From: a virus | Direction: 5' to 3' (one strand) | Length of the DNA stretch: 35,441 nt | Virus record (IMG/VR): IMGVR_UViG_3300042894_005807 | Location: 1 to 35,441 of that record | In this document: positions 5,834-26,507 of the stretch, one piece after another | How the letters are laid out: each line of letters opens with the position of its first letter | Numbering within the stretch: position 1 is the first letter of the stretch | The notes under the pieces: generated by a model | The model's database searches: none | The model's input: the letters and a program-made list of their open reading frames with translations, nothing else | Told to the model about the DNA's origin: nothing | Position numbers and translations under genes: made by a program

Positions 5834-5834
5834 C

Positions 5835-5841
5835 TATTTAT
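5835..5841 (+). promoter_or_regulatory. late-promoter-like box cTATTTATta
   Basis: Box between two head-internal genes, directly after a stop codon. Only 4 nt separate it from the ATG at 5846, so a T4-like start point would fall on or inside the start codon. Confidence 0.5.
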
Positions 5842-5845
5842 TACC

Positions 5846-6199
5846 ATGATAAAGCTCAAACATCTACTTCCAGAGTGCAATGAATGTGCACGTGATTGGA
5901 ATCACGGCCACGACCATGAAGCCGGTATGGCTAAGAACGAGTTAAGAGATATGATCTCTAACGCATCTAAGATCGATTCGATGGTAGGTGAAGGAGATAA
6001 CTTACCTGGATGGGTATCAGCATATATCTCATTGGCTGCTGACTATATGCATTCAGTATCTGAGTATCTAGCAGGTGAAACAAGTAGAATGCAAGAGCCA
6101 GGTCCTGGATATGGTTTAGAAGAAAAGAAAGCCCATAGTAAGGCACAACAAGCCGCCATTGCAATAGCAATGCAGAAAGCGGGTAAAAAACCAAAATAA
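5846..6199 (+). CDS. head-internal protein with helical metagenome-phage domain (117 aa)
   Basis: The leader MIKLKHLLPE ends in an L-P-E site. It is followed by CNECARDWNHGHDHEAG, rich in Cys and His. The core (residues 33-80) is a helical module, MAKNELRDMISNASKID and a WVSAYISLAADYMHSVSEYL stretch. I recognise it as a common domain in T4-like phage proteins, usually joined to other leaders or tails. The C-terminus, KAHSKAQQAAIAIAMQKAGK, is a basic alanine-rich helix. No catalytic motif is seen. Together with the two preceding genes it forms a cluster of near-identical leaders on unrelated bodies. Function unknown; packaging into the head is inferred. Confidence 0.8.
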   Translation: MIKLKHLLPECNECARDWNHGHDHEAGMAKNELRDMISNASKIDSMVGEGDNLPGWVSAYISLAADYMHSVSEYLAGETSRMQEPGPGYGLEEKKAHSKAQQAAIAIAMQKAGKKPK

Positions 6200-6200
6200 A

Positions 6201-6800
6201 ATGAATCTAGACAAACTAAAAGGACACGTTCCTGACACAGTAATTGCCCAGATCCCTGAAGTAGGTGAAAAATTTGCTATCAATACCCCTCTACGTCTTG
6301 CACACTTTCTAAGTCAGTGCGGACATGAATCAGGCGGATTCAAGTTAGTAAACGAAAACCTAAATTACGGAGCAAAAGGTCTTGTTGGTATTTTCAAGAA
6401 GTATTTTCCCGATGAAGCAAAAGCTAAACTATACGAACGTAAGCCCGAGAAAATTGCAAACCTGGTTTACGGAAGTAGAATGGGAAATGGTCCTGAGGCT
6501 TCCGGTGACGGTTATCGCTTTCGCGGTCGTGGTTATATTCAGCTTACTGGCAAAGATAACTATAAAGCCTTTGACGCTATTGTTGCAGAAAATATCCTCG
6601 AAAATCCGGACTTAGTTGCTTCAAAGTACCCACTTTTATCAGCAGCTTGGTATTGGAATAGCCGTAAATTAAATGCTGTAGCCGATCAAGGCGCTACTGA
6701 TGAAATCGTAACCAAAGTGACCAAGCTAGTAAATGGCGGTACTATTGGATTACCTGATCGCATTAAGCATTTTAAAGAGTATCATACGCTACTTACATAA
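6201..6800 (+). CDS. GH19 chitinase-like endolysin (199 aa)
   Basis: The whole length matches the glycoside hydrolase family 19 endolysin fold used by many phages to cut the glycan strands of peptidoglycan. Visible motifs are LAHFLSQCGHESGGF (33-47, with Glu43 the likely general acid), YGAKGL, the GDGYRFRGRGYIQLTGKDNY block (102-121) that lines the substrate groove, and SAAWYWNSRKLN near the end. Length is typical for a single-domain enzyme. There is no signal peptide, so a holin or virion delivery would be needed to reach the wall. It has no capsid-targeting leader although it sits inside the internal-protein operon, one base after the previous stop. It could serve lysis or, less likely, entry. 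Confidence 0.93.
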   Translation: MNLDKLKGHVPDTVIAQIPEVGEKFAINTPLRLAHFLSQCGHESGGFKLVNENLNYGAKGLVGIFKKYFPDEAKAKLYERKPEKIANLVYGSRMGNGPEASGDGYRFRGRGYIQLTGKDNYKAFDAIVAENILENPDLVASKYPLLSAAWYWNSRKLNAVADQGATDEIVTKVTKLVNGGTIGLPDRIKHFKEYHTLLT

Positions 6801-6802
6801 GA

Positions 6803-7411
6803 ATGAGAACACTTGTTAACGAAGTACGTCAGCTACAAAAGATAGCAGGGCTCTTAAAAGAGGATGATATCGACTTGTCTGATACCCCGAAGTTTGCAAA
6901 TTTAAAAAGTAAGCTTATTACTTTTGTAAAACTGTTATATCCAGAAGCAATTAATGACGAATTAATTCTTAAATCTATAAGCCACGTTGTAGAAACTAAT
7001 GATGTTAACGATTTACTGATTATAATGGCAGATGTTCTAGGGGATGGTTCAGATGACCCGGATGCATTCGACGGAGTATTTTCTAGAAGTGATATAGAAT
7101 CAGCTGTTGATCAAGCCGACCTCCCTGACGAAATTGCAAATGACATAATAAACAGCCATTATGTAACACGTCTAGAACTAGGGGAAGATTTAGATCTATC
7201 CGATACTCCTGATTTTAAATCTAGACCACGAACAGTAGAAGAGTTTTTGGAAGAGGAAGACTTTATAAATTGGTTAATTGATAGTATACATGAGAATCTT
7301 GACTGGGAAAATACACAAGACCTAATTTATAACTATATAATAAAGAATAAAACATTAGAAGATTTTCAAGACGCTTGGAAAGGATATCAGGAAGAATTAG
7401 CCGGATATTAA
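6803..7411 (+). CDS. acidic head-internal protein with two DxDLSDTPxF motifs (202 aa)
   Basis: The leader MRTLVNEVRQLQKIAGLLKE carries an RQLQKIAG helix and ends in an L-K-E site. The sequence that follows, DDIDLSDTPKF (from residue 21), is repeated at residue 129 as DLDLSDTPDF, again just after a possible cleavage site (L-G-E). Leader and motif recur in the products at 14439 and 16557. The rest is acidic and helical, with a pattern of short Ile/Leu/Asp segments (VNDLLIIMADVLGDG, NWLIDSIHEN). No known domain is recognised. The paired site-plus-motif units hint that the prohead protease could cut it into two pieces. Location and leader point to the capsid core; the biochemical role is unknown. 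Confidence 0.78.
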   Translation: MRTLVNEVRQLQKIAGLLKEDDIDLSDTPKFANLKSKLITFVKLLYPEAINDELILKSISHVVETNDVNDLLIIMADVLGDGSDDPDAFDGVFSRSDIESAVDQADLPDEIANDIINSHYVTRLELGEDLDLSDTPDFKSRPRTVEEFLEEEDFINWLIDSIHENLDWENTQDLIYNYIIKNKTLEDFQDAWKGYQEELAGY

Positions 7412-7424
7412 GATAATTTTTGGA

Positions 7425-7431
7425 TATTTAT
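7425..7431 (+). promoter_or_regulatory. late-promoter-like box aTATTTATaa
   Basis: Six bases separate the box from the ATG at 7438. With T4 spacing (box at -13 to -6) the first transcribed base would be the A of that ATG, giving a leaderless message. Confidence 0.5.
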
Positions 7432-7437
7432 AATAAT

Positions 7438-7908
7438 ATGACAAGCAGAGAAATTATAAGAAGGTTAATACTTAACGAAGTGGAAAGGATGGAACCCAAA
7501 GTTCAATCTTTTGAGGACGATCCTATCAATTTCATTCTACAGAAGTATCCTACCCTCCGTAAGACTTTAGAGATGTTAATGTCTCCTGCTTACAAAGATT
7601 ACATTACAGGCATTTATATTATTGCCCCAAAGCCTACTACCTTTAAAGTTGTTCTCCATAACGGACAGTACTTTCTCTTAACCTTTATGGGAAAAGTTTA
7701 CGAAGCTACCGTTAATGGAAAGAAGTTCTACCTGCAGACAATTGGGGAAAGAGAAAGATGTACCAATGCTATTGCACGTGCACTAGCCGTTGGTAATCCC
7801 ATTGAGACTAAGGGTCCTGAAGGGGGAGAACAGGTAGCCGGTGAACCTGAAGAAGGTGTCGAAGAAACACCACCAGAAGAAGCAGAAGCAGAAGAAACAG
7901 AAGCTTAG
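7438..7908 (+). CDS. head-internal protein with acidic low-complexity tail (156 aa)
   Basis: I choose the ATG at 7438 and not the TTG at 7420, because the TTG overlaps the promoter-like box. The protein begins MTSREIIRRLILNE, a leader-like helix ending in an L-N-E site. The central part (about 20-115) is a small alpha/beta domain with a GIYIIAPKPTTFKVVLHNGQ strand pair and YEATVNGKKFYLQTIG, suggesting a compact beta-rich fold. The last 40 residues are almost only Glu, Pro, Gly and Ala (EEGVEETPPEEAEAEETEA). No family is recognised. It is the last gene before a strong terminator. Confidence 0.78.
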   Translation: MTSREIIRRLILNEVERMEPKVQSFEDDPINFILQKYPTLRKTLEMLMSPAYKDYITGIYIIAPKPTTFKVVLHNGQYFLLTFMGKVYEATVNGKKFYLQTIGERERCTNAIARALAVGNPIETKGPEGGEQVAGEPEEGVEETPPEEAEAEETEA

Positions 7909-7915
7909 TATAGAG

Positions 7916-7940
7916 CCCGGCCCAAAAAGCCGGGTTTTTT
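7916..7940 (+). terminator. rho-independent terminator
   Basis: A 6-bp GC stem (cccggc / gccggg) encloses a 7-base loop and is followed by six Ts. It closes the internal-protein operon a few bases after its last stop codon. Confidence 0.92.
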
Positions 7941-7960
7941 GTTGTTAGTCTGATTTTTTT

Positions 7961-7967
7961 TATTTAT
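7961..7967 (+). promoter_or_regulatory. late-promoter-like box tTATTTATac
   Basis: Lies between the terminator and the ATG at 7987, 19 nt upstream of the start. It would restart transcription for the small gene after termination. Confidence 0.55.
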
Positions 7968-7986
7968 ACTAATAGAAATCGTACTT

Positions 7987-8238
7987 ATGAGAACACGCAG
8001 CATAACTAAAACAATGAATACCGTTTGTGGAAAGACTATCACTTTCTTGCAAACCGAAGGACAGCCCAATAGAATGCATTCCGTTGACGGACCTGCTTTA
8101 ATTTATTCTGATGTGGATAATAAAGCACCCGAGTACTACCTCTATGGAATCAAATATTCAAAAGCAGAATGGAAAGAAAGACTTACTCACAAGAGAGTAA
8201 CAGTCTCGGTAGATATATCTTTTGATTCACAGTTTTAA
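7987..8238 (+). CDS. small HxxDGPA-motif phage protein (83 aa)
   Basis: The centre reads RMHSVDGPALIYSDVDNK, then APEYYLYGIKYSKAEWKERL. This is the H-x-x-DGPA … YY-x-x-G-x-x-x-x-x-x-EW pattern of short beta-hairpin repeats found in many small phage proteins; known longer relatives carry several such repeats in tandem. Only one copy is present. No activity is established for the family as far as I know. It has its own promoter-like box and follows a terminator, and it lacks a capsid-targeting leader, so it looks like an independent unit placed between the internal-protein operon and the packaging genes. Confidence 0.8.
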   Translation: MRTRSITKTMNTVCGKTITFLQTEGQPNRMHSVDGPALIYSDVDNKAPEYYLYGIKYSKAEWKERLTHKRVTVSVDISFDSQF

Positions 8239-8240
8239 AC

Positions 8241-8247
8241 TATTTAT
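8241..8247 (+). promoter_or_regulatory. late-promoter-like box cTATTTATta
   Basis: Two bases after the stop of the small HxxDGPA gene and 14 nt upstream of the ATG at 8262. It would drive the acidic protein and the terminase gene. Confidence 0.6.
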
Positions 8248-8261
8248 TAATAAACGCTACT

Positions 8262-8765
8262 ATGGCATTTAATCTGCAAAAATTCTTGATAGAGAACAGG
8301 TTAACTAAAAGATCACGTCTTAACGAAGACGCTATGACTAAGACCGATGCCGAACAACAGACTATGGGAGCCGAACAAGGAGACGATGTAACCGGAGATG
8401 AAGAAATGTTTGACTACGGCGGAGATTCTGGGGATCAAGACGACGATATCGGTAGTTCAGATGAGTTTGAAAGAGAGCCAGCAGGCGGAGATATTGAGTC
8501 AAACGAACCTGCTATGAATAAGCTTGCTCAAGACCAGGCTAAATTAAGTAAGCTTGAAAAAATAAAAGATACTCTAGTTAGCGGACTAAATAAAAAGAAA
8601 GGGGAAGAGGGATATTTGAGTTTAGATCAATATAAAACGTTAATTCAGAGCTACAAAGTAGATGGTAAAGATCTGAATATCCCGCAAGAAATAAAGAAAT
8701 TAAGAGCTAGTATAGCAAAGCAGACAGATCCTGTTATCGGAGATACTGAAGAAGAGGATATTTAG
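8262..8765 (+). CDS. acidic capsid-targeted protein upstream of terminase (167 aa)
   Basis: The leader MAFNLQKFLIENRLTKRSRL contains a FLIE site and is followed by a second candidate site (RLNE/DAMT, residues 21-27). This is the short basic-helix plus Glu arrangement of T4 internal proteins. Residues 30-85 are an Asp/Glu/Gly-rich disordered stretch (MFDYGGDSGDQDDDIGSSDE). The C-terminal half is a helical region with KLSKLEKIKDTLVSGL and a GYLSLDQYKTLIQSYKVDG segment. It occupies the place where small terminase (gp16) lies in T4, but I see no resemblance to gp16 and the leader argues for a core or internal protein. Confidence 0.75.
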   Translation: MAFNLQKFLIENRLTKRSRLNEDAMTKTDAEQQTMGAEQGDDVTGDEEMFDYGGDSGDQDDDIGSSDEFEREPAGGDIESNEPAMNKLAQDQAKLSKLEKIKDTLVSGLNKKKGEEGYLSLDQYKTLIQSYKVDGKDLNIPQEIKKLRASIAKQTDPVIGDTEEEDI

Positions 8766-8782
8766 AGGTTTTAATACTGTGT

Positions 8783-10372
8783 ATGAGTCAACGAGCTGCA
8801 ATTAGCGATGCAATAAGACAGGAACTTATTAGATGTAAACAAGACCCCGTGTACTTCATGAAGAAGTACTACACCATTCAACACCCAACCAAGGGTAGAA
8901 TGACGTTTAATCTCTATCCTTTTCAGGAAAAAGTACTTAAGCTTCTACAAAGACATGATTATACAATCATAAATAAATCAAGACAGCTAGGTATCTCAAC
9001 TCTAACCTCAGCCTTTGCTTTGTGGATGATGTTGTTTGAGCAGGATAAAAACGTTCTTGTCCTTGCCACTACCCAAGCCACGGCAAAAAATATGGTAACC
9101 AAGGTAAGGTTTGCTTATGATAACCTTCCTACTTGGATGCAGATGCCAGTACTAGAACATAATCGTCTTAGTTTACGTCTTAAAAACGGATCACAAATCA
9201 AAGCCGTTTCTGCAGCTACTGATAGTGCACGTTCTGAAGCAGTATCACTCCTTGTAATAGACGAAGCAGCTTTCATTGATAGAATTGAAGACATTTTTAC
9301 TGCCGCACAACAAACACTTGCTACCGGTGGTAGATGTATTGCATTATCTACACCAAACGGTGTCGGTAACTGGTTTCATAAAGAGTTTACCCGTGCACAG
9401 TTAGGTGAAAACAAGTTTACTCCTATCAGTCTTCCATGGACCGTACACCCTGAAAGAGACCAAACATGGAGGGACGAGCAAACAGCACAGCTTGGTCCTC
9501 GTAATGCCGCACAAGAGTGTGACTGCGACTTTAGTACTTCAGGGGACACGGTAATTGAACCCGGTATCCTTAATTTCTATCAAGAAACTACAGTACAAGA
9601 GCCTATTGAAAGAACAGGTCCAAACCATGCCTACTGGGTTTGGAATTATCCCGACCCCATGAAGACGTATATGATAGTTGCTGACGTAGCAAGAGGGGAC
9701 GGTAAAGACTTTTCTACCTTCCATGTCATTGATACGATCACCGTCGACCAGGTAGCTGAATACAAAGATCAGGTACCTACTAAGGACTTTGCACGCATGC
9801 TCGTATCGAAGGCTATTGAATGGAACAACGCAATGCTTATTGTAGAGAATGCGAGTATTGGATGGGACGTTGTTACTACAATACAGGAGATGGGATACCC
9901 AAACCTGTACTATGCACCCAAATCTGAACTCGTGGGTACACAAATTGATCTCTACGTTACAAAATTTGATAGAGGTGACGGAATGGTACCTGGATTCAGT
10001 ATGAATCAAAGAACTCGCCCTCTTGTAATTGAGAAAGCACGGTCATTCATGGAGGAAAAAAGCGCATTAATTCGTTCACAACGATTGCTCGATGAATGGC
10101 GGGTGTTTATTTGGAAAAACGGCAAACCTCAAGCACTTCAAGGGTATAATGACGACCTTGTAATGCCGTACAGTATCGGGCTATTTTTGCGTGATACTGC
10201 ATTACGCTTCCGCCAAACTGCTATGGATCTCACCTATGCAAGCCTTAACGGATACACTAAAACAGAACAAAATTTTCAGGTTTATACGCCAAATAATGCT
10301 GCAAATCAGCAGAATCCCTGGTCTATGAACGTAAACGGCCAGAATGACGACATAACTTGGCTGTTGGGATAA
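8783..10372 (+). CDS. 17: terminase large subunit, gp17-like (529 aa)
   Basis: This is the packaging motor: an ATPase that pumps DNA into the prohead, and a nuclease that cuts the concatemer. The ATPase half shows a Walker A variant SRQLGIST (66-73, in the style of T4 SRQLGKT), Walker B LLVIDE (156-161) and the coupling motif ALSTPNG (187-193). The RNase H-like nuclease half shows MIVADVARGDGKDF (Asp301), LIVEN (Glu355) and GYNDDLVM (Asp457/458), the three expected acidic positions. At 529 residues it is somewhat shorter than T4 gp17 (610). Its start follows the preceding stop by 17 nt with no Shine-Dalgarno. Portal follows directly; in T4 the tail sheath and tube genes lie between them. Confidence 0.97.
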   Translation: MSQRAAISDAIRQELIRCKQDPVYFMKKYYTIQHPTKGRMTFNLYPFQEKVLKLLQRHDYTIINKSRQLGISTLTSAFALWMMLFEQDKNVLVLATTQATAKNMVTKVRFAYDNLPTWMQMPVLEHNRLSLRLKNGSQIKAVSAATDSARSEAVSLLVIDEAAFIDRIEDIFTAAQQTLATGGRCIALSTPNGVGNWFHKEFTRAQLGENKFTPISLPWTVHPERDQTWRDEQTAQLGPRNAAQECDCDFSTSGDTVIEPGILNFYQETTVQEPIERTGPNHAYWVWNYPDPMKTYMIVADVARGDGKDFSTFHVIDTITVDQVAEYKDQVPTKDFARMLVSKAIEWNNAMLIVENASIGWDVVTTIQEMGYPNLYYAPKSELVGTQIDLYVTKFDRGDGMVPGFSMNQRTRPLVIEKARSFMEEKSALIRSQRLLDEWRVFIWKNGKPQALQGYNDDLVMPYSIGLFLRDTALRFRQTAMDLTYASLNGYTKTEQNFQVYTPNNAANQQNPWSMNVNGQNDDITWLLG

Positions 10373-10375
10373 AGA

Positions 10376-10382
10376 TATTTAT
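10376..10382 (+). promoter_or_regulatory. late-promoter-like box aTATTTATta
   Basis: Sits in the 15-nt gap between terminase and portal, 5 nt from the portal ATG at 10388. The portal has no other near start codon, so the short spacing appears real. Confidence 0.5.
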
Positions 10383-10387
10383 TAGAT

Positions 10388-12343: not shown

Positions 12344-12351
12344 TACGTTGA

Positions 12352-12358
12352 TATTTAT
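12352..12358 (+). promoter_or_regulatory. late-promoter-like box aTATTTATta
   Basis: Lies 8 nt after the portal stop and 17 nt before the ATG at 12376. It would drive the prohead core genes. Confidence 0.6.
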
Positions 12359-12375
12359 TAGTAAGTCAATTACCG

Positions 12376-13230
12376 ATGATCAAACATAGTAAATACAAGA
12401 ATACCGGTATTTTATTTGAGCTTCTTGTACGTCAATCTACTGCAGATTTGATGTCAAACAAAGACCCTAAAGCTGTTAAGATTTTTAAGAAATACTTCAC
12501 AAACACGGAGTTAGGGAAAGAATATAACCTGTATAATACTGTAGCTAGCTCACCTAAGCTCACAGAAGCTAAGGCCGAAATCCTTATAAACACTATTGTT
12601 GAGCAAGCAAAAAAGCTCGATAGAGTAAAACTTGATAAGGAAAAGTATAATTTGATTCGCGAGGTCAAAAAACATTATGATCTCGATGATTTTTTTAAAG
12701 CAAAAATTGAGAACTATAAGATTCACGCCTCAGTTTTTACACTTATTGAAAATCAACTTACTAAGAAATTTTCAGATACAAAGCAGATTGTAACACATAA
12801 GCTTACTCTCCTTGAGCATATTACTAAAGAAGCCTTAACTGAAAGAAAAGTAGCTTCCAAGGTAGTTGAAGAGTTTATGAAAGAGGATAAAGAGGTAAGA
12901 ATCCTTGCCTACAGAATATTAGTTGAGAAGTTTAACGAAAAGTATGCAAGCCTATCCTCTCAGCAGAAAGATCTACTAAAAGAGTATATTAATAACGTCT
13001 CTGATACAAAGAGACTAAGAACCTATCTCAATACAAAACTACTCGAGGTTAAAAGCGAGCTCGTAGACATTAAGTCTAACGTCGGAGATAAGGTTCTTCA
13101 AATAAAATTAAATGAGGTTTTGAATTTTATTAAGCCCCTCGGTCCAAACGAGTCAATCAAGGACGAAGTCTTAATCGGCTTAATGCAGTACTATCAATTG
13201 ATTAGTGAGCTCAAAGCCGTCAAACAATGA
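12376..13230 (+). CDS. conserved all-helical protein following portal (284 aa)
   Basis: The N-terminal block IKHSKYKNTGILFELLVRQS is a recognisable signature of a protein that follows the portal gene in many T4-like phages from aquatic sources. The rest is an almost uninterrupted series of charged helices (NLIREVKKHYDLDDFFKAKI, EEFMKEDKEVRILAYRILVE, LLKEYINNVSD) with few Gly or Pro. There is no leader-like cleavage site near the start and no enzymatic motif. It overlaps the next gene by four bases (ATGA). Its place between portal and protease corresponds to gp67/gp68 of T4, the prohead core genes, so a core or portal-assembly role is plausible; I see no sequence similarity to them. Confidence 0.85.
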   Translation: MIKHSKYKNTGILFELLVRQSTADLMSNKDPKAVKIFKKYFTNTELGKEYNLYNTVASSPKLTEAKAEILINTIVEQAKKLDRVKLDKEKYNLIREVKKHYDLDDFFKAKIENYKIHASVFTLIENQLTKKFSDTKQIVTHKLTLLEHITKEALTERKVASKVVEEFMKEDKEVRILAYRILVEKFNEKYASLSSQQKDLLKEYINNVSDTKRLRTYLNTKLLEVKSELVDIKSNVGDKVLQIKLNEVLNFIKPLGPNESIKDEVLIGLMQYYQLISELKAVKQ

Positions 13231-14300: not shown

Positions 14301-14305
14301 AGTAT

Positions 14306-14437: not shown

Positions 14438-14438
14438 A

Positions 14439-14729: not shown

Positions 14730-14736
14730 TTTTAAC

Positions 14737-14743
14737 TATTTAT
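14737..14743 (+). promoter_or_regulatory. late-promoter-like box cTATTTATta
   Basis: Four bases upstream of the ATG at 14748, in an 18-nt intergenic gap. This is the tightest spacing together with the box at 5835. Confidence 0.5.
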
Positions 14744-14747
14744 TATT

Positions 14748-15926
14748 ATGAAAAACATTCAAGCTCAATATCAAGACCTTCTAGAAGGTAAGATGTCTAT
14801 GAGCAACTTCATGCGTAGTGTACGTATGCAGTTCCCGCAGCATATATCTCCTACAACGTCTTATGATGATTCTGTAAAAATTCTAAAAGGAAAGCGTATC
14901 CTTTCTGAAGCTAAGAAACCAGAAGGTGTTTACGGACACAATCCTAATGCCGAAAACGACACCTACAGAGGTATTGATCATCTTAACTACTATCAAGTTT
15001 ATCATGGTATCCAGTATGAGCTTGCTAAGATGCCTGAGATTACTGACGAGAATTACGTTAAGGCTAGAAAGAAAGTCGTTGATACTATCCTGAAAGATCC
15101 CGATGCTTACAAGCAATTACAGCTTGCAAACTTCAAGGCTGTAAAAGAAATGGATAAGGATCTCGAGATGAAAGATGTTAAGAAGAACAATCTTAACGAT
15201 AAGCCAAACGAAATGAAGGTTGTTAAGAAAGATGCTAAAGAAAACACTCAAAGTACTCTAGAGAAGAAAGAGAAAAAGAAAGCCAAAAACGGAAAAGGTC
15301 TCGATCATATGACCCAGACCCCTAAAGGTAAACTAGAGGCTTTCGCTACCCCCGGCAAAGAAAAAGTACACGCTCTCAAAGAGCATATTCTCGACGAAAT
15401 GACTACCCAAAATCCTCATCATGAAGATTTTCATAAAGGGATGGAGGTTTATAAAAAAAAAGGTGACGGTGTTCCGGGTAAAGTAATCGAATTCGATGGA
15501 CATACTGCTACGGTAGAGTGGCAAGACGGCCGTAAAGAAGATTTGCAAAAAAACGTACTTACAAAAGTAAAGCCTGAGAAAGCAGAAGTACCTATGCCTG
15601 ATAAGCCACGTACGATGGTTCAGTGGAGTAATAACGAAGAAAAACTCAATGAAGATCCTGTAGGACAGCAAGCAGCCGGCGACGAAGAAGAAGAAGCTAG
15701 TCTACGTGCTACTGTTATAAAAAAGGAAGATAGAGGTTCAATGCTAAAAAAGCTCAAAGAGAGACTTGTTAAAGCTATTAAAAAAGAAGGGATCAGAAAA
15801 AATCCAAACAACCAAACATTTGTAGCAACTAACACTCCTGCAGATGATTCTTTAGCTAACCAAATGGGGTACACTCAACCTGTACCTGGTAGCCTCCAGT
15901 TTTTAGGTAAAAAGAAAGGCGGATAG
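14748..15926 (+). CDS. prohead core/internal protein with KOW-like segment (392 aa)
   Basis: The N-terminal block (QYQDLLEGKMSMSNFMRSVR, then QFPQHISPTTSYDDSVKILK and GKRILSEAKK) is a module I recognise from T4-like phages, where it precedes or follows the protease gene. It has [I/L]-x-E sites at LLE and ILSE. Residues 60-130 are helical. Residues 130-200 are a lysine-rich disordered stretch (KKEKKKAKNGKG). Residues about 231-270 form a small SH3/KOW-like barrel (GMEVYKKKGDGVPGKVIEF, then TATVEWQDGRKEDL). The C-terminal part mixes acidic and basic helices and ends LQFLGKKKGG. It lies one base before the protease start. A prohead core protein that is processed during maturation is the best reading. 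Confidence 0.82.
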   Translation: MKNIQAQYQDLLEGKMSMSNFMRSVRMQFPQHISPTTSYDDSVKILKGKRILSEAKKPEGVYGHNPNAENDTYRGIDHLNYYQVYHGIQYELAKMPEITDENYVKARKKVVDTILKDPDAYKQLQLANFKAVKEMDKDLEMKDVKKNNLNDKPNEMKVVKKDAKENTQSTLEKKEKKKAKNGKGLDHMTQTPKGKLEAFATPGKEKVHALKEHILDEMTTQNPHHEDFHKGMEVYKKKGDGVPGKVIEFDGHTATVEWQDGRKEDLQKNVLTKVKPEKAEVPMPDKPRTMVQWSNNEEKLNEDPVGQQAAGDEEEEASLRATVIKKEDRGSMLKKLKERLVKAIKKEGIRKNPNNQTFVATNTPADDSLANQMGYTQPVPGSLQFLGKKKGG

Positions 15927-15927
15927 T

Positions 15928-16551: not shown

Positions 16552-16556
16552 AATCA

Positions 16557-17252
16557 ATGAAACAGCAACTCAATGAAATAAAAAGACTGCAAGAACTTGC
16601 AGGAGTTGCCGCCGAAGGAGAACGTAATTCTCTAAAAGATGATAACATCTTTGACGATATCCCCTCTATAGACATTGATATACAAAAGGATGAAAGGGGA
16701 GAAGACACTCTCTTTATGAATATAAGTACACTATACCATGGAGGAGGAAACAAAAAAATATCATTACTAAAAGATAATCCACGATTGCAACAGCAAGTAA
16801 TGCAGGTTATGCAATCTGAAATACAAAAGACGTTCAGAAAAGTTATTCACTCTATTCTAGGTGAACCTTACGGACTGCCGGAATCTACTGAAACCGATAT
16901 CGACCTATCAGATACTCCAGGGTTTACTTCAAATCCTGCTAAAAAAATCAAAAATTTACCGATTCCTACCTTAGATTCGATTGCAAAAAGGTTATCTACT
17001 ATAGCAAAAAAAAGAGGCTGTTACGATATTACTAAGGTAACCGATCCTAGTACTATTAGTAACAGAGATTTCAGCGTTTATAAATACGGAGCCTTTTCGT
17101 GCGATCTTTCTAATGCTGCACTACTAATGCTACAGGATCTTAAGGTCCTAAGCGATGATGAAGATTCTAACAACTATAGGATTAGCCGTTTCTGTGTTTA
17201 TATTCTAATCGATCGCTTAAAAGAAGAAAAATTACTTTTCATAGAGTGGTAG
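16557..17252 (+). CDS. head-internal protein between protease and scaffold (231 aa)
   Basis: The ATG at 16557 is preferred to the upstream in-frame TTG at 16536, which lies inside the protease gene. The leader MKQQLNEIKRLQELAGVAAE shares the RLQxLAG helix with the products at 6803 and 14439 and with the scaffold C-terminus. Residue 114 starts another DIDLSDTPGF motif, here in the middle and preceded by PESTET. The C-terminal 100 residues are a basic helical domain (IAKRLSTIAKKRGCYDI … RFCVYILIDRLKEEKLLF). No known family is recognised. T4 has no gene between 21 and 22, so this is an insertion of an extra capsid-targeted cargo gene in the morphogenesis core. Confidence 0.8.
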   Translation: MKQQLNEIKRLQELAGVAAEGERNSLKDDNIFDDIPSIDIDIQKDERGEDTLFMNISTLYHGGGNKKISLLKDNPRLQQQVMQVMQSEIQKTFRKVIHSILGEPYGLPESTETDIDLSDTPGFTSNPAKKIKNLPIPTLDSIAKRLSTIAKKRGCYDITKVTDPSTISNRDFSVYKYGAFSCDLSNAALLMLQDLKVLSDDEDSNNYRISRFCVYILIDRLKEEKLLFIEW

Positions 17253-17267
17253 TAAAAATTTTTACTA
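17250..17267. other. 18-bp perfect palindrome overlapping a stop codon
   Basis: TAGTAAAAATTTTTACTA is an uninterrupted inverted repeat whose first three bases are the stop of the preceding gene. It lies 30 nt upstream of the scaffold promoter-like box. It could be a dimeric protein site or a weak terminator stem. Confidence 0.6.
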
Positions 17268-17296
17268 AGAATCAAGGTTTTCCGTACAGGCAGGGA

Positions 17297-17303
17297 TATT
17301 TAT
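17297..17303 (+). promoter_or_regulatory. late-promoter-like box aTATTTATga upstream of scaffold
   Basis: It lies 90 nt upstream of the scaffold ATG. With T4 spacing, transcription would start near 17310, directly before a 6-bp hairpin. It probably serves scaffold and major capsid protein, since no other box lies between those genes. Confidence 0.65.
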
Positions 17304-17310
17304 GATCGTA

Positions 17311-17328
17311 TGCCATCCTAATATGGCA
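17311..17328 (+). promoter_or_regulatory. 5'-leader hairpin of the scaffold/capsid transcript
   Basis: TGCCAT and ATGGCA pair around a 6-base loop at the predicted 5' end of the message. A 5' stem could stabilise the mRNA. No T-run follows, so it is not a normal terminator. Confidence 0.55.
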
Positions 17329-17393
17329 TTTTGTATTCTATACACTCTTATATTGCTACCCTACTAATTAGCAATCCCCGAAACAAATTTAAG

Positions 17394-18632: not shown

Positions 18633-18665
18633 ACAATTTTTTTTTAAACCAAACATTTTTTTAAA

Positions 18666-20381: not shown

Positions 20382-20408
20382 TCAATCTAGATAGCTTAAA
20401 TAATAAAG

Positions 20409-20432
20409 CCGGCCCCGTAAGGCCGGTTTTTT
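20409..20432 (+). terminator. rho-independent terminator after major capsid gene
   Basis: A 6-bp stem ccggcc / ggccgg with a 6-base loop is followed by six Ts. It ends the scaffold/capsid unit 27 nt after the capsid stop codon. Confidence 0.93.
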
Positions 20433-20446
20433 ATTCCCAAATCTAC

Positions 20447-20453
20447 TATTTAT
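20447..20453 (+). promoter_or_regulatory. late-promoter-like box cTATTTATat
   Basis: Lies 14 nt after the T-run of the capsid terminator and 12 nt before the ATG at 20466. Confidence 0.65.
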
Positions 20454-20465
20454 ATTAAAATTACA

Positions 20466-20735
20466 ATGCCTACTTTACTAGATTTAAGCAGAGATCCGTA
20501 CGGATTAAACGGAGGTGCAATTATAAGCGGTTCAGTAAATACAAAAGCTGACGCTTTCTGGTATTTACCTATAACAAACACTACCGCAAAGGTATCTTTT
20601 AGCAGCCTTACAGGCGGCCCAATTAGTGCTTCTTTCACAGCAGGTAATGGAGTTTTTGGTGCAATCACTGAAGTTTCTCAGTCGTCCGGTATAGCCGTTC
20701 TCTACTCTGGATCATACCAGTATCCCCTGCCCTGA
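20466..20735 (+). CDS. probable capsid decoration protein (89 aa)
   Basis: A small, nearly uncharged, beta-rich protein: MPTLLDLSRDPYGLNGGAII, then strands such as AFWYLPITNTTAKVSF, SSLTGGPISASFTAGNG and SSGIAVLYSGSYQYPLP. It is the only gene between two strong terminators and has its own promoter-like box, so it can be made at a level independent of its neighbours, as expected for a protein needed in hundreds of copies. The position directly after the major capsid gene suits a head-decoration role (like Soc or Hoc in T4 by function, not by sequence). I recognise the LLDLSRDPYGLNGG start from similar small genes next to gp23 in other T4-like phages. The function is inferred. Confidence 0.72.
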   Translation: MPTLLDLSRDPYGLNGGAIISGSVNTKADAFWYLPITNTTAKVSFSSLTGGPISASFTAGNGVFGAITEVSQSSGIAVLYSGSYQYPLP

Positions 20736-20763
20736 TATAAATCCTTGAGAATATATAATATAG

Positions 20764-20785
20764 AACCCTCTTCGGAGGGTTTTTT
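20764..20785 (+). terminator. rho-independent terminator with UUCG tetraloop
   Basis: A 7-bp stem (aaccctc / gagggtt) closes a C(UUCG)G tetraloop and runs into a T-tract. It ends the decoration-protein unit. Confidence 0.94.
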
Positions 20786-20801
20786 ATTCTTTCCTGCTTA
20801 C

Positions 20802-20808
20802 TATTTAT
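20802..20808 (+). promoter_or_regulatory. late-promoter-like box cTATTTATat
   Basis: Follows the UUCG terminator and lies 16 nt upstream of the PhoH start. It would transcribe PhoH and the neck genes. Confidence 0.65.
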
Positions 20809-20824
20809 ATCAAACGGTCTGTGC

Positions 20825-21499
20825 ATGGTGACAACAACAGTTTCAAAAAAGAAAAAACTTAAGAATCCTATCAAATTTCAAGTTACGCTCAACGAAGAAC
20901 AAAAGGCTGCCAAAGCCATAATTCTTGGAAACAAGATAACGGTTCTGAAAGGAGGTGCAGGGTCAGGAAAATCGATGGTAGCCGCACAAGCTGCCCTTGA
21001 TTTACTGTTTACCGGCCAGGTTGAGAAGGTAATTCTAACAAGGCCTGCTGTAACTGCAGGAGAGGAATTAGGGTTCATGCCTGGAGATAAAGATGCAAAG
21101 CTTGCTCCTTATACTGCAGCTATATACGATAACATGTATAGGCTCTATAATAAGGAGAAGATTGATAGAGAGATAACAGAGGGTAGGATTGAAGTGATTC
21201 CAGTGGCGTTCATGAGAGGTAGGAATTTGACAAACTGTTGTGTAGTAGTAGACGAAGGTCAAAATATTACACACCGTCAGATGGAGTTGATATTGGGTAG
21301 AATATGTGAAGGATCGAAAATGATTATTTGCGGTGATACAGCGCAGATCGACCTAAAAGACAAGAAATTATCAGGTTTTGGCTTTATCTGTAACAATTTG
21401 ACAAACGTAAAAGGTTTTGCAGTTGTAACGTTAAAGACAAATCACCGCGATCCAATCGTGGAAGATATTTTGAAAGTATACTTAGACCATAGAGACTAG
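20825..21499 (+). CDS. phoH: PhoH-like P-loop ATPase (224 aa)
   Basis: Walker A GGAGSGKS (43-50) and Walker B CVVVDEGQN (139-147) are intact, with the family's LTRPAVTAGEELGFMPGD (71-88), FMRGRNL and MIICGDTAQIDL blocks. These match the PhoH domain, related to the N-terminal helicase-like ATPase of RecD/superfamily 1. Length fits phage PhoH proteins. The gene is common in marine and freshwater phages; its role is unsettled (RNA metabolism and phosphate stress have both been proposed). A Lys-rich N-terminus (SKKKKLKNPIKF) may contact nucleic acid. It is placed in a structural operon, six bases from the neck gene, which is uncommon for a metabolic gene and suggests late expression. Confidence 0.95.
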   Translation: MVTTTVSKKKKLKNPIKFQVTLNEEQKAAKAIILGNKITVLKGGAGSGKSMVAAQAALDLLFTGQVEKVILTRPAVTAGEELGFMPGDKDAKLAPYTAAIYDNMYRLYNKEKIDREITEGRIEVIPVAFMRGRNLTNCCVVVDEGQNITHRQMELILGRICEGSKMIICGDTAQIDLKDKKLSGFGFICNNLTNVKGFAVVTLKTNHRDPIVEDILKVYLDHRD

Positions 21500-21504
21500 A
21501 AAAC

Positions 21505-22698: not shown

Positions 22699-22700
22699 TT

Positions 22701-23195
22701 ATGGCTCTATTTGGAACAGTCAGGGATGCAAACATGCAACTCGGTGTAGCAGCCGAGTTTGTAAATAATGTAGTTACCCAACAAATCGGGTACTATAAGA
22801 TAGTCCTCCCTGCAAGCCCGCCAAATATGTACGGTGAAGCTCTAGTTAAACAGTACATAGGTCCAGTGCTGCTTAACTGTTTGATAGTGCGCGGAGACTT
22901 TTCAACCGTAGCTGACAATAATTTCGGTCCCGACAGTAGACGAGAGGTAGATTTCAGGTTTTTAAAACCAGACCTGGAAGCAGCTAATGTAGTACCTGAG
23001 ACCGGTGATATCATCATGTACAACGAACTCTACTACGAGGTCGATAATACGAACGAAAATCAGCTCTTCCTCGGAAAAGATCCGAATTACACTTATTCAG
23101 CTGGCTTAAACAACTTTGGTACTAGTTTCTCAATTATACTTAACACCCATATGACAACACCGGAAAGACTGGGTATAACACAACAAAGACTCTAG
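22701..23195 (+). CDS. 14: neck protein, gp14-like (164 aa)
   Basis: Starts two bases after the gp13-like stop. The motif VPETGDIIMYNELYYEVDNT (98-117) followed by QLFLGKDPNYTY corresponds to the PKEGDLIYF … FEI … QLG stretch of T4 gp14. An earlier segment YYKIVLPASPPNMYGEA and RREVDFRFLKPDLE also fit. At 164 residues it is shorter than T4 gp14 (256). Together with gp13 it would form the neck that plugs the packaged head. The assignment depends on one conserved block plus gene order, so it is less certain than those of terminase or portal. Confidence 0.72.
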   Translation: MALFGTVRDANMQLGVAAEFVNNVVTQQIGYYKIVLPASPPNMYGEALVKQYIGPVLLNCLIVRGDFSTVADNNFGPDSRREVDFRFLKPDLEAANVVPETGDIIMYNELYYEVDNTNENQLFLGKDPNYTYSAGLNNFGTSFSIILNTHMTTPERLGITQQRL

Positions 23196-23196
23196 T

Positions 23197-24057
23197 ATGC
23201 CGCAAATTGTACGACCACAGAATAGGAGAGAGTTTATGGATAAACTCATTATTCCAGCTGATCCTCAGTATGGAAACCCTAATCTCGTATTCTCTGAGCC
23301 GTTCAAGCCTGGACAACCTGAATTCAATAGAGCTTATGAAACTGCATTTGAACCTACAGCAGACAAGAAATACTCAATAGGACTTGAGGATATTGATCAA
23401 TCTATAATGTATCACTTTACAAACGTTCTTAAGCTGACGGTATTTCAAAACAATTCTACGGTACTTGTCCCGATTATATATGGATCTCCTGAGAAATGGA
23501 AATCAATTCAGAAAGACGGATACTACCGGGATAATGTCTCAAGAATCATGTCTCCATTGTTAGTTTTTAAGAGATCTTCAGTAGTTCAAAACCGTACTCT
23601 TGGAAATAAGATTGACGGTAATGTTGCAAGAAACGTACAACTTTACGAAAAACCATTCTCTCGTAGGAATATATACGATAATTTTAATGTACTACAGAAT
23701 CAAAAGCCGCAGAAGGAATATACAGTAGTGGTAACACCTGATTACGTGACAGTTAACTACACCTGTATCATGTGGACAAACTTTGTAGAACAGATGAATA
23801 AGTTAATTGAGGCTGTAAACTTTGCCTCTAATTCTTACTGGGGAGACCCTGACTCTTTTCAATTCCTTGCAAAAACTGAAACTTTCACTGACGCACAAGT
23901 CTACGAACAGGGCGAAGATAGGATTGTGAGAACTGAATTCGACCTCACTGTAAACGGTTATTTGATTCCGGATTCGCTGAACGCTTATATAGCTCAGCTT
24001 TCAGGTAAAACATATAGTATTTGCAAAATAGTGTTTAGTACCGAACAGGTACAGTAG
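23197..24057 (+). CDS. 15: tail completion/sheath stabiliser protein, gp15-like (286 aa)
   Basis: In T4, gp15 forms the hexameric ring that ends the tail and binds the neck. Support: NSTVLVPIIYGSPEKWKSIQ (86-105), comparable with VPITYASKEHF of T4 gp15; a central YTCIMWTNFVEQMNKLIEAV helix, comparable with the sheath-stabiliser's Y-E-L … F … Q helix; and RIVRTEFDLTVNGYLIPDS near the end, like the L-T-F-E-V-N-G-W block. Length is near T4 gp15 (272). It follows the gp14-like stop by one base and is the last gene before the fibre genes. Since the contractile-tail sheath and tube genes are not in the window, this is the main evidence here for a myovirus-type tail. Confidence 0.83.
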   Translation: MPQIVRPQNRREFMDKLIIPADPQYGNPNLVFSEPFKPGQPEFNRAYETAFEPTADKKYSIGLEDIDQSIMYHFTNVLKLTVFQNNSTVLVPIIYGSPEKWKSIQKDGYYRDNVSRIMSPLLVFKRSSVVQNRTLGNKIDGNVARNVQLYEKPFSRRNIYDNFNVLQNQKPQKEYTVVVTPDYVTVNYTCIMWTNFVEQMNKLIEAVNFASNSYWGDPDSFQFLAKTETFTDAQVYEQGEDRIVRTEFDLTVNGYLIPDSLNAYIAQLSGKTYSICKIVFSTEQVQ

Positions 24058-24084
24058 CGCGGGTTGATGTTGTTACGAACGAAC

Positions 24085-24091
24085 TATTTAT
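24085..24091 (+). promoter_or_regulatory. late-promoter-like box cTATTTATaa
   Basis: Lies 17 nt before the GTG start at 24109 and starts the fibre region. There is no terminator between the gp15-like gene and this box. Confidence 0.6.
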
Positions 24092-24108
24092 AATCAAACT
24101 TCTTAGGC

Positions 24109-24855
24109 GTGGCCAACACCATTTCGCTGGCAGGGATATCACCCGGCTCCATAATCGAAGCCGATCAACTCACGAGGGTTATATATGCGCTTAACGGAGT
24201 AAGTGGCAGTGATATAATAATATCCGGAAGCCTAGGAGTGACCAGCTCGGCTGAATTTTCAAGCTCGGTAACATTTTTTGTAGGCGCAACCGGTTCTTTA
24301 TTTGGTACGTCTAGCTGGGCACTCAATGCATTAACTGCTTCTTACTTTAGCGGCGTAACTAACGTATTTCCTTATACAGGATCAGCTATCTTTAGCGGTA
24401 GTATACTAGCTACAGGTAGCGTAAACATAACCGGTTCATTATTTGTAAACGGAGTTCAAATAGGAGCAGGATTTAATGTTATAGCTAATCCAGGTCCCGG
24501 TAGAGTTATTTTATCTGACGGAACACCTACTTCAGCTACCGCATCCGCTAATTTAATATTTACCGGAAATAACTTTTTTATCACAGGATCAACTATTTTC
24601 ACAGCTGTTTCTGGAGAAACAAATATAGTTACGGTCAAGTCTAGCAGCGTTAATTATTTGACTATAAACACAGGTAGTCTATTTGACATATATAGCAGCA
24701 TATTCAATGTTAGAGACCTAGTTACCCAACAACCGGTATTAACTGTAAGTGAGAGTATAGTAAAAATAGCAACTCAATCTCTCGATCCAACCGGTACAGC
24801 TCCAAATGGAGCTATATGGTTCACCTCTGCGAGTCTATATGTCGGTCTGGACTAA
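24109..24855 (+). CDS. fibre/adhesin-type protein with GTG start (248 aa)
   Basis: Starts with GTG (ANTISLAGISPGSIIEADQL). The body is built from short Ser/Thr/Gly/Ala strands: SSSVTFFVGATGSLFGTSSW followed by ALNALTASYFSG, then GSAIFSGSILATGSVNITGS and LFVNGVQIGAGF. The GSLFGTSSWALNA-TASY phrase is identical in style to the modules of the giant fibre gene downstream, so the three fibre genes share an ancestor or exchange parts. The C-terminus IWFTSASLYVGLD may be a small cap. Such repetitive beta-structured trimers form phage tail fibres or whiskers. No enzymatic or S74 chaperone domain is visible. The exact position on the virion cannot be told from sequence. Confidence 0.78.
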   Translation: MANTISLAGISPGSIIEADQLTRVIYALNGVSGSDIIISGSLGVTSSAEFSSSVTFFVGATGSLFGTSSWALNALTASYFSGVTNVFPYTGSAIFSGSILATGSVNITGSLFVNGVQIGAGFNVIANPGPGRVILSDGTPTSATASANLIFTGNNFFITGSTIFTAVSGETNIVTVKSSSVNYLTINTGSLFDIYSSIFNVRDLVTQQPVLTVSESIVKIATQSLDPTGTAPNGAIWFTSASLYVGLD

Positions 24856-24862
24856 AATTAAC

Positions 24863-24869
24863 TATTTAT
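24863..24869 (+). promoter_or_regulatory. late-promoter-like box cTATTTATta
   Basis: Seven bases after the preceding stop and 23 nt upstream of the ATG at 24893. Confidence 0.62.
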
Positions 24870-24892
24870 TAAAGTAAAAATCAACAAGCAAA

Positions 24893-26263
24893 ATGGCAAA
24901 TTGGAAAAAAGTCGTAGTATCGGGTAGCGCAGCCGAACTACAGAGTCTTAAAATAGCAAACAACGGCCTTGAAGTAACCGGATCGGTGAAAGCTGGTTTG
25001 AGTAATTCAAATGAAGCTAACATTGTATCCTATAACACGGCAACAGGTCAATTCTTTTATCAAGGCACTGGTTCATTTACCGCAACTACCGCGTCTTATA
25101 TTCTAAGCTCTAACGTGGACGGCCCTCTAGGAATGAATAGCATTGCTAGCGCTTCACAAGCACTTACTGCTTCTTTAGCTCTCAAAACTACAGGAAGCCT
25201 TTCTCAAGTAGTAGGTGGCGGTCTAGGTGCTTTCAGCTTTGATGGTAGTACAAACGTACTGGTAGAAGTTAGCGGTGCCGCTCAACTTTCTCAAAATGCT
25301 GTCACTAAGTGGGACGATACTGCCAACAAATTCGTTAATTCAAGCCTTACTGATAACGGTACTGTAGTAAGTGGTGCTAGCTCAATTCAATTAACCGGAG
25401 CTAATTCTAGTCTAACCGGTTCATTCACGGGATCATTTGCCGGTAGTTTTGTAGGAGTCACCAACCTCCCTGACTTGACTCAAGGCACCGGTATTACAGC
25501 GTTTACTTACGATGGAGCTGCAGCAGCCACTGTAGCAGTTTCTGGAGCCGCTAACCTAACTACCGATAAGATTACAAAATGGACTGGTAATGCATTTGCT
25601 AATACCAGCCTGTCTGATGACGGTACAACGGTTTCTGGTTCAAGCTCAATTCGCCTTACAGGCAATAATTCAAGCTTGACTGGTTCATTCACTGGATCAT
25701 TTACCGGTGACGGTAGCGGATTGACAGGTATCGCTACTACACTAAGACTTACCGGTTCTTATTCTACAGAGCCTTCAACCTTCACCACTGTTGATCTTCT
25801 TAACCAAGGATTGACCATTGCAGGTACGCTTAACGAGATTAACGTTACAGCATCTGCACAGACCATTACAATAGGTTTACCTGAAAGTGTAGTAATCGGC
25901 GACTTAAGAGTTAATAACAACTTAACCGTCCTCGGTACTGCAAGCTTCCAGCAAACAACAAACCTAGAAGTAGCAGATAGATTTATCCTTCTTGCTTCTG
26001 GTTCAAATACAACTGGCGATGGCGGTCTAGTAGTACAGCAAGGTACGCAAAACGTAGGCGAACTTTTCGGATACGACAGCGGAGCACAGAGATGGGCTAT
26101 GACAGGCTCGTTTACTGCAAATCAGAGTGCGTTTACACCTGATGCTTTCATGGCAGCAGTAGTAGAAGGAGCAAGTGGAAATCCAACATCTGCACCTGCT
26201 AGATATGTAGCAAAAGGTAACATATTTATAGGAAATGATGAAACAATTTGGATCTACTCTTAA
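24893..26263 (+). CDS. tail fibre protein with duplicated internal unit (456 aa)
   Basis: The N-terminus MANWKKVVVSGSAAELQSL matches that of the giant fibre (MPSWKKLILSGSDASLNSL), probably a common docking peptide. A following YILSSNVDGPLGMNSIAS segment also matches. Two copies of an about 80-residue unit are seen: VSGAAQLSQNAVTKWDD … NSSLTGSFTGSF, then VSGAANLTTDKITKWTG … NSSLTGSFTGSF (nt about 25265-25450 and 25535-25710). The C-terminal domain (about 290-456; VVIGDLRVNNNLTVLGTASF, RFILLASGSNTTGDGGLVVQ, ending FIGNDETIWIYS) is a compact module seen at the ends of such fibres. A role in receptor binding or baseplate decoration is inferred. Confidence 0.82.
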   Translation: MANWKKVVVSGSAAELQSLKIANNGLEVTGSVKAGLSNSNEANIVSYNTATGQFFYQGTGSFTATTASYILSSNVDGPLGMNSIASASQALTASLALKTTGSLSQVVGGGLGAFSFDGSTNVLVEVSGAAQLSQNAVTKWDDTANKFVNSSLTDNGTVVSGASSIQLTGANSSLTGSFTGSFAGSFVGVTNLPDLTQGTGITAFTYDGAAAATVAVSGAANLTTDKITKWTGNAFANTSLSDDGTTVSGSSSIRLTGNNSSLTGSFTGSFTGDGSGLTGIATTLRLTGSYSTEPSTFTTVDLLNQGLTIAGTLNEINVTASAQTITIGLPESVVIGDLRVNNNLTVLGTASFQQTTNLEVADRFILLASGSNTTGDGGLVVQQGTQNVGELFGYDSGAQRWAMTGSFTANQSAFTPDAFMAAVVEGASGNPTSAPARYVAKGNIFIGNDETIWIYS

Positions 26264-26285
26264 TAAGGTTTTAAAAAATATAGTT

Positions 26286-26492
26286 ATGGGTTTTAGCGCA
26301 AGAAATGTAACTACAAATAACAACAGCGTAGAGGAGCCCAAACCGGCTCCTTTACCTGTCTTGAATCTAAAAAAAGACGAAGTAGAGCATCTTTTAAATC
26401 TCATTAGAGAGTCTCATTTTAAAGGAGAGCACGTTCAAAAAATCTTTGAACTCGTGCTAAAACTACAGGATTACTATATCAAGCTTCCTTGA
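26286..26492 (+). CDS. small helical protein between fibre genes (68 aa)
   Basis: The frame is open from an ATG at 26235 inside the preceding gene, but the ATG at 26286 lies 22 nt after that gene's stop and gives MGFSARNVTTNNNSVEEPKP. After a Pro-rich linker the protein is one helical block: LNLKKDEVEHLLNLIRESHF, then KGEHVQKIFELVLKLQDYY. I recognise this helical block (EhLLxLIxxSxFKG … KLQ) from small proteins near structural genes in T4-like phages; no function is known. A TATTTAT box at 26223-26229, inside the fibre gene and 5 nt before the ATG at 26235, leaves the longer 85-aa form possible. Confidence 0.72.
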   Translation: MGFSARNVTTNNNSVEEPKPAPLPVLNLKKDEVEHLLNLIRESHFKGEHVQKIFELVLKLQDYYIKLP

Positions 26493-26500
26493 TTCTCCGA

Positions 26501-26507
26501 TATTTAT
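26501..26507 (+). promoter_or_regulatory. late-promoter-like box aTATTTATat of the giant fibre gene
   Basis: Lies 95 nt upstream of the ATG at 26603. This leaves a leader of about 90 nt, the second long one in the window. Confidence 0.62.

Follow-up and report, generated by a model that had tools for sequence, protein, structure and literature searches.

The late promoters of bacteriophage T4 consist of a single 8-bp element, TATAAATA, which spans positions -13 to -6 and is accompanied by no -35 element (PMC2988020). The same T4 late consensus is given in PMC2984593, and phage Aeh1 has a late consensus with a/gC at -13/-12 (PMC2988020). In promoters of Flavobacterium johnsoniae, 4 to 5 nucleotides (nt) separate the -10-type element from the start site (PMC6847099). 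Here we describe a TATTTAT box that recurs in the gaps between genes of IMG/VR record IMGVR_UViG_3300042894_005807, analyzed over its whole length of 35,441 nt (the window). The window is a fragment with 40% G+C and with nearly all genes on the + strand; it comes from an uncultured, T4-like relative of Flavobacterium phage immuto and represents the head and packaging module, and the host is probably a member of the Bacteroidota of the Flavobacterium type. With good confidence, the boxes are best explained as T4-like late promoters that would be read via a sigma factor of the kind encoded by immuto gene 152 (immuto_152). This kind of system, a phage late sigma factor with a -10-only box, is known from T4. 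The novelty lies in the box and the sigma family, in the apparent absence of gp45 and gp33, and in the predictions of leaderless messages; the literature searched held no description of the TATTTAT box or of transcription in immuto.

Placement, conservation, and anatomy of the TATTTAT box

An exact search placed all 13 TATTTAT boxes where the earlier note on this DNA had reported them, on the + strand throughout. All 13 are intergenic, in short gaps that total ~760-800 nt of the 35,441 nt (~2%). As the earlier note had also stated, 12 of the 13 boxes follow a C or an A, and the box at 7961 follows a T. Terminator-like hairpins are located upstream of three boxes (7961, 20447, and 20802). The full motif is R-M-TATTTAT-W-A, which in the T4 frame reads R(-13) M(-12) T(-11) A T T T A(-6) T(-5) W A. 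In this frame, the predicted transcription start (+1) therefore lies 5 nt after TATTTAT. The boxes and the terminator-like hairpins are as follows, with the base preceding each box included in its interval.

5834-5841, + strand: box (C)TATTTAT; predicted +1 at 5846, the A of the ATG (leaderless)
7424-7431, + strand: box (A)TATTTAT; predicted +1 at 7436 (A), ATG at 7438
7912-7938, + strand: intrinsic terminator-like hairpin with a T tail, upstream of box 7961
7960-7967, + strand: box (T)TATTTAT, the exception in its preceding base; predicted +1 at 7972 (A), ATG at 7987
8240-8247, + strand: box; predicted +1 at 8252 (A), ATG at 8262
10375-10382, + strand: box before the portal gene (10388); 5 nt from box to ATG
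12351-12358, + strand: box; predicted +1 at 12363 (A), ATG at 12376
14736-14743, + strand: box; predicted +1 at 14748, the A of the ATG (leaderless)
17296-17303, + strand: box of the scaffold gene; predicted +1 at 17308 (G)
20409-20434, + strand: terminator-like hairpin, GCCGGCCCC..AGGCCGG followed by TTTTTTA, upstream of box 20447
20446-20453, + strand: box; predicted +1 at 20458 (A), ATG at 20466
20762-20783, + strand: terminator-like hairpin, upstream of box 20802
20801-20808, + strand: box of the PhoH-like gene; predicted +1 at 20813 (A), start at 20825
24084-24091, + strand: box; predicted +1 at 24096 (A), GTG at 24109
24862-24869, + strand: box; predicted +1 at 24874 (G), ATG at 24893
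26222-26229, + strand: candidate 14th box, in the end of open reading frame (ORF) 24893-26263, near overlapping ORF 26235-26492
26500-26507, + strand: box upstream of a 16-codon ORF (26511) and a repetitive gene of 2930 amino acids (aa) (26603)

The stem of the hairpin at 20409-20434 was listed for the minus strand by the terminator search, and its + strand assignment was made from the sequence.

The total number of TATTTAT copies in the window is unremarkable (17 versus 12.4 expected), and the signal resides in place and strand. Thirteen of the 15 + strand copies were inside gaps (binomial P = 2e-20), and no minus-strand copy was found within the gaps of the window. A Markov-1 model of the gaps gave a mean of 0.87 copies and a maximum of 8 in 5000 runs, compared with the 13 observed. 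A generic sigma70 scan of the window showed no excess of TTGACA/TATAAT sites (48 versus 43.9 expected). The in-gene copies at 26223 and 31608 that the earlier note had listed were recovered, but two on the minus strand, at 8969-8975 and 17080-17086, had not been listed there. The copy at 26223, which had been taken as in-gene background, is indeed inside ORF 24893-26263; however, it is also 5 nt before the ATG of the overlapping ORF. Its TATTTATAGGAAATG was also found in the relative G006, and it may be a fourteenth promoter.

We retrieved 80 relatives from IMG/VR, of which the nonredundant set comprised 46 (591 kb, 5% intergenic). The nearest isolates by terminase identity were immuto (56%) and Microcystis phage Mel-JY01 (52%), with Rhodothermus phage RM378 (33%) more remote. 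Independent genomes compared were the isolate immuto (MW353177), a 181-kb relative (G001), and Mel-JY01, with cyanophage P-RSM4 as the control. In the gaps of the 46 relatives, TATTTAT occurred 213 times on the coding strand versus 18 times on the opposite strand; within coding DNA, the counts were 76 versus 56. No such bias was seen in these relatives for 7-mers of the same composition, except shifted versions of the motif itself. The coding-strand bias was repeated in immuto (41 versus 13), G001 (43 versus 7), and Mel-JY01 (12 versus 3).

The boxes were also conserved gene by gene. The box before ORF 8262 was kept in 42/42 orthologues at a median protein identity of 38%, and that before 14748 was kept in 32/32 orthologues, with a spacing of exactly 4 nt in 30. 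The box before 12376 was found in 48 of 51 orthologues, 17 nt from the ATG in 42 of them. The scaffold gene retained its box in all 24 orthologues, with box-to-start distances of 64-104 nt, and boxes preceded the PhoH-like gene in 7/7 and the portal gene in 54/68 orthologues. Three boxes were less well kept, namely those before 5846 (14/43 relatives), 7438 (3/60), and 7987 (9/60). Genes within operons had no box in their orthologues (13227, 0/35; 15928, 0/30; 18666, 0/23), and a further gene that is boxless in the window had one in 1 of 41 orthologues. In immuto, [AC]TATTTAT was present in 23 of the 41 gaps of the structural half versus 12 of the 73 elsewhere (P = 2e-5).

A cluster-weighted logo showed R M at -13/-12. 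Neither the weighted logo to -23 nor the unweighted ones, which reached -50 and -40, revealed a -35 element. One unweighted logo had a -35-like T at position -18, which was rejected as conserved coding sequence of the terminase C terminus; it was absent in the independent genomes. The consensus of the TATTTAT clade, RMTATTTAT, differs from TATAAATA, and TATAAAT showed no coding-strand enrichment. The description of the signature as distinct in the earlier note thus holds insofar as the box is not TATAAATA, but the box is not an unrelated motif; it appears to fit the T4 late frame as a variant of the T4 box in which TT replaces AA at -9/-8. At 44 independent boxes distant from any ATG, the base at the predicted +1 was A in 73%, G in 18%, C in 2%, and T in 7%. 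This position was 87% purine when boxes of immuto, G001, Mel-JY01, and the window were pooled, the highest of 16 downstream positions, and purine in 11 of the 13 window boxes. Box-to-ATG distances of 8-11 nt were underrepresented, partly from repeated orthologues and more weakly after weighting, and a few cases occurred in G001 and immuto.

The interpretation of the boxes as late promoters is supported by coding-strand specificity, intergenic placement, gene-by-gene conservation, and concentration in the structural half of immuto, and also by a fit to the T4 late frame, the lack of a -35 element, and the purine at the predicted start. Judged from these sequence features, the boxes are very likely promoters and, a shade less surely, active late.

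The immuto_152 family and its probable reading of the box

A gp55-like sigma factor gene had been anticipated along with the boxes, and a sigma-region-2 family was found in 7 of the 13 relatives searched. The carriers were G001, G002, G003, G004, G005, G010, and immuto; the other relatives searched are fragments. The terminases of the six carriers other than immuto are 64-97% identical to that of the window, with G010 at 97%. The sigma gene is outside the window, which is itself too short, and in G010 it is ~31 kb upstream of the terminase gene. When the gp55 profile phrog_234 was run against whole records, there was one weak match, to immuto gene 152. In IMG/VR, no fewer than 600 stretches matched relatives of this protein. 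The family members are 232-257 aa long and have a conserved C-terminal domain of their own.

All 24 aligned members matched NCBIfam sigma models (SigI and extracytoplasmic function [ECF]), with a best E value of 1.7e-5. The scores were below the curated cutoffs, and the match is therefore at the family and not the subfamily level. Some members also matched phrog_234 (weakly, E 0.008-0.5) and phrog_1740. An hhalign comparison of the family with seven gp55s gave a probability of 79% (E 1.5e-5), with weak specific kinship to gp55. The AlphaFold model of the family (mean predicted local distance difference test [pLDDT] score, 76) matched region 2 of sigmaE (4lup; Z 9.3, root mean square deviation [rmsd] of 2.4 A over 91 residues) and T4 gp55 (7d7c_F; Z 9.9, rmsd of 6.6 A over 126 residues). 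Helical domains inflate Z values, and weight was placed on the consistency of the fold matches, almost all of those listed being sigma factors. The modeled region 2 fold and the sequence support assignment of the immuto_152 family to the sigma70-family proteins. The C-terminal domain, folded alone (pLDDT 87), had no match to sigma region 4 or gp33, and its candidate assignment as an integrase N-terminal domain (best Z 6.4) was not convincing.

Other searches for the sigma factor were negative. A phmmer search with T4 gp55 (a query 100% identical to GenBank T4 records) found nothing among the ORFs of immuto and G001. Pfam Sigma70_r2 found nothing in whole genomes and reached an E value of 0.055 in one immuto_152 member only, and a search with phrog_12791 found nothing. 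We make no claim that the sigma gene is syntenic with gp47/gp46 in the manner of P-RSM4; the neighboring genes in immuto have no Pfam match. In GenBank, the immuto_152 homologues of named phages are labeled "hypothetical protein" or are unannotated.

Both an immuto_152-type protein and the TATTTAT box are carried by immuto, G001, and Mel-JY01. P-RSM4 has gp55 and TAAATA boxes, with neither an immuto_152-type protein nor a TATTTAT bias. The gp45 clamp (phrog_223) was detected in P-RSM4 and not in immuto, G001, or Mel-JY01, a result that would also be obtained with a distant clamp or a host clamp. In the same three phages, gp33 (phrog_254) was not detected; it was detected in T4 and P-RSM4. The boxes are probably read by the host RNA polymerase with an immuto_152-type sigma factor.

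In the mechanism that we propose, the boxes would be the -10-type elements of late promoters that have no -35 element, with initiation at a purine 5 nt beyond the box. A phage-encoded sigma factor, composed of region 2 and a new C-terminal helical domain, would read the box on the host RNA polymerase. The packaging, head, and tail genes would be transcribed as short operons, with intrinsic terminators between several of them. The start site would fall on the A of the ATG in some genes, yielding leaderless mRNAs, while others would have leaders of 8-19 nt and the scaffold gene an ~86-nt leader beginning with a hairpin.

Several observations weigh against this mechanism. Some immuto boxes are upstream of nonstructural genes, and the major capsid gene (18666) had no box in any of 23 relatives although strong expression is expected of it. 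RM378 matched the sigma profile weakly (E 4e-4), and TATTTAT was absent from its intergenic DNA. The link between sigma factor and box comes from co-occurrence in a few lineages, and the sigma gene is predicted to be present in the window phage from its presence in G010, with its 97% identical terminase. An A/T-rich gap of ~30 nt separates the scaffold gene from the major capsid gene (window positions 18633-18665). It is possible that the major capsid mRNA arises by readthrough from the scaffold promoter, by processing, or from another promoter.

The spacing of 4-5 nt to the predicted start, as in F. johnsoniae promoters, and the probable use of the host RNA polymerase by the phage would also suit promoters of the host's own sigma factor (Bacteroidota TAHHTTTG with a -33 TTTG) or of an alternative host sigma factor, with no phage factor involved. 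We consider this improbable, since TATTTAT is incompatible with TAHHTTTG and no -33 motif was seen. Nor was TAnnTTTG enriched on the coding strand of immuto, G001, Mel-JY01, and the window (+ strand, 1, 5, 2, and 0, respectively; - strand, 10, 11, 1, and 3). Moreover, the same box and a phage sigma factor occur in Mel-JY01, a phage assigned to a cyanobacterium.

It is very unlikely that the box acts in the mRNA, as a translation initiation or RNA-processing signal, and is not a promoter. Box-to-ATG distances span 4 to ~100 nt, genes within operons have no box, and A-3 and A-6, rather than TATTTAT, are the determinants known in Bacteroidota, even though many boxes precede a start codon by 4-23 nt and AU-rich upstream signals matter in Bacteroidota, which have no Shine-Dalgarno sequences. 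The purine peak is fixed relative to the box and not to the ATG, which indicates that it marks a start site. In addition, conserved hairpins begin just past the predicted +1 of the scaffold gene, and boxes follow terminators.

It is likewise very unlikely that the promoter is on the opposite strand and drives antisense or bidirectional late transcription. In favor of this reading, the reverse complement WATAAATA is the T4/cyanophage late consensus (TATTTATA reverse-complemented is TATAAATA, which T4-type systems read), but the genes at box junctions are all on the + strand, the spacing between box and downstream ATG stays constant (4 nt in 30/32 and 17 nt in 42/51) while the upstream side varies, the antisense +1 carries no pyrimidine signal (0.51-0.53) whereas the sense +1 is strongly purine, and the TAAATA boxes of the T4-type relative P-RSM4 face genes (11 versus 1).

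Predicted leaders and gene content

A box-to-ATG spacing of 4 nt places the predicted +1 on the A of the ATG, as at boxes 5835 and 14737. From the ATG at 14748 onward, the N terminus MKNIQAQYQDLLEGK has been kept with synonymous changes, indicating that this start codon is real. The 5-nt spacing at the portal gene is consistent with a leaderless start if the spacing to +1 is 5. On balance, the spacings favor the view that a subset of the boxes yields leaderless mRNAs. In F. johnsoniae, leaderless messages are a minority, and 87% of leaders are longer than 10 nt (PMC6847099).

The scaffold mRNA has a predicted leader of ~86 nt (17308-17393) with two conserved hairpins, and an Rfam search of the window, these hairpins included, gave no match.

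17310-17329, + strand: leader hairpin 1 (ATGCCAT..ATGGCAT), starting 2 nt past the predicted +1, with compensatory changes
17353-17376, + strand: leader hairpin 2 (ATTGCT..AGCAAT), with a compensatory change in one pair

Covariation in the leader hairpins involved 5 pairs and 16 double-change cells; 0 of 500 shuffles were as high in cells, and sliding controls were near zero. The onset of a hairpin at the 5' end predicted from the box independently supports transcription from the box. The scaffold leader is possibly an mRNA stabilizer or an autoregulatory element.

Downstream of the last box (26501), the stretch at 26508-26602 holds the 16-codon ORF directly after the box and then ~40 nt to the giant gene, and the 16-codon ORF is a possible short upstream ORF in the leader of that gene. 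The giant gene itself (26603-35395) is a single 2930-aa ORF with T/A/S-rich repeats (ATTASYV-like) and probably encodes a tail fiber or whisker-like structural protein. Other genes of the window were assigned by PHROGs as endolysin (6201), large terminase (8783), portal (10388), head maturation protease (15928), major head protein (18666), and PhoH-like protein (20825). Terminase matches in four relatives (L069, L070, L071, and L072) extended over 2157-2368 nt versus the usual ~1587 nt, which suggests that their large terminase gene carries an insertion (an intron, an intein, or an extra domain).

Two side observations concern the isolates. Mel-JY01 encodes the ribosomal protein bS21 within its structural module (L189, 22183-22410), and its assignment to Microcystis is curious, in host or in origin, for a phage that is otherwise immuto-like. 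In immuto (MW353177, 18607-36971), DpdA and a queuosine-type pathway (QueC, QueD, QueE, FolE, and QueF) are annotated, and its DNA may therefore carry a 7-deazaguanine modification.

Comparison with known systems

These results provide a promoter map for a large environmental group of T4-like phages whose transcription program is apparently undescribed, and they name the immuto_152 family as the likely late sigma factor of these phages. A review of the T4 system asks why a fused late sigma factor has never been found (PMC2988020). The two-domain immuto_152-type protein is a candidate for one, although its C-terminal domain gave no match to gp33 or region 4. A more far-reaching reading, which we put forward tentatively and consider somewhat doubtful, is that in a widespread T4-like group a single two-domain sigma factor replaces gp55, gp33, and gp45, acts independently of the clamp, reads RMTATTTAT, and makes obligately leaderless late mRNAs. 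The +1 would then be on the A of the AUG for selected morphogenesis genes, an arrangement that suits hosts that do not use Shine-Dalgarno sequences, and if this is true, late genes would not be switched on through the replication clamp. Phage immuto growing on Flavobacterium LMO8 offers a system in which to ask whether T4-type late transcription can run without a sliding clamp and gp33 and whether late mRNAs are systematically leaderless in a Bacteroidota host.

Among bacterial systems, the SigI and ECF sigma factors resemble the immuto_152 family in region 2, which matches SigI and sigma70-ECF models and the sigmaE region 2 fold. Unlike them, the family has no region 4 match, and its C-terminal domain has no convincing fold relative. 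The Bacteroidota primary promoter TAHHTTTG (PMC6847099) resembles the box in having 4-5 nt to the start site, which for the box is a predicted one, and a weak or absent -35 element, but its -7 element is not matched by the TATTTAT box.

The phage systems are closer. In the cyanophages S-PM2 and P-RSM4, the late promoter NATAAATA (PMC2984593) is likewise a single coding-strand box that heads T4-like structural operons. In contrast to the window, 11 coding-strand gaps of P-RSM4 contain TAAATA and none contains TATTTAT; P-RSM4 also carries canonical gp55, gp33, and gp45. The late consensus of Aeh1 (PMC2988020) has R at -13 and C at -12, similar to the R and A/C here, but Aeh1 keeps TAAATA downstream where the clade of the window has TATTTAT. 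T4 late promoters differ in their sequence, TATAAATA rather than RMTATTTAT, with AA in place of TT at -9/-8 and without the R at -13 and the extra T at -5. T4 also differs in its sigma factor, gp55, than which the immuto_152-type protein (232-257 aa) is longer, with its own conserved C-terminal domain. Whereas gp45 and gp33 belong to the T4 system, they went undetected in immuto, G001, and Mel-JY01 with profiles that matched the positive controls, and leaderless mRNAs are predicted here. The likeness to T4 (PMC2988020) extends to a single -10-type box with no -35 element, A+T richness downstream, a predicted start about one helical turn downstream, structural genes as those probably driven, and a candidate phage sigma factor with a region 2 fold.

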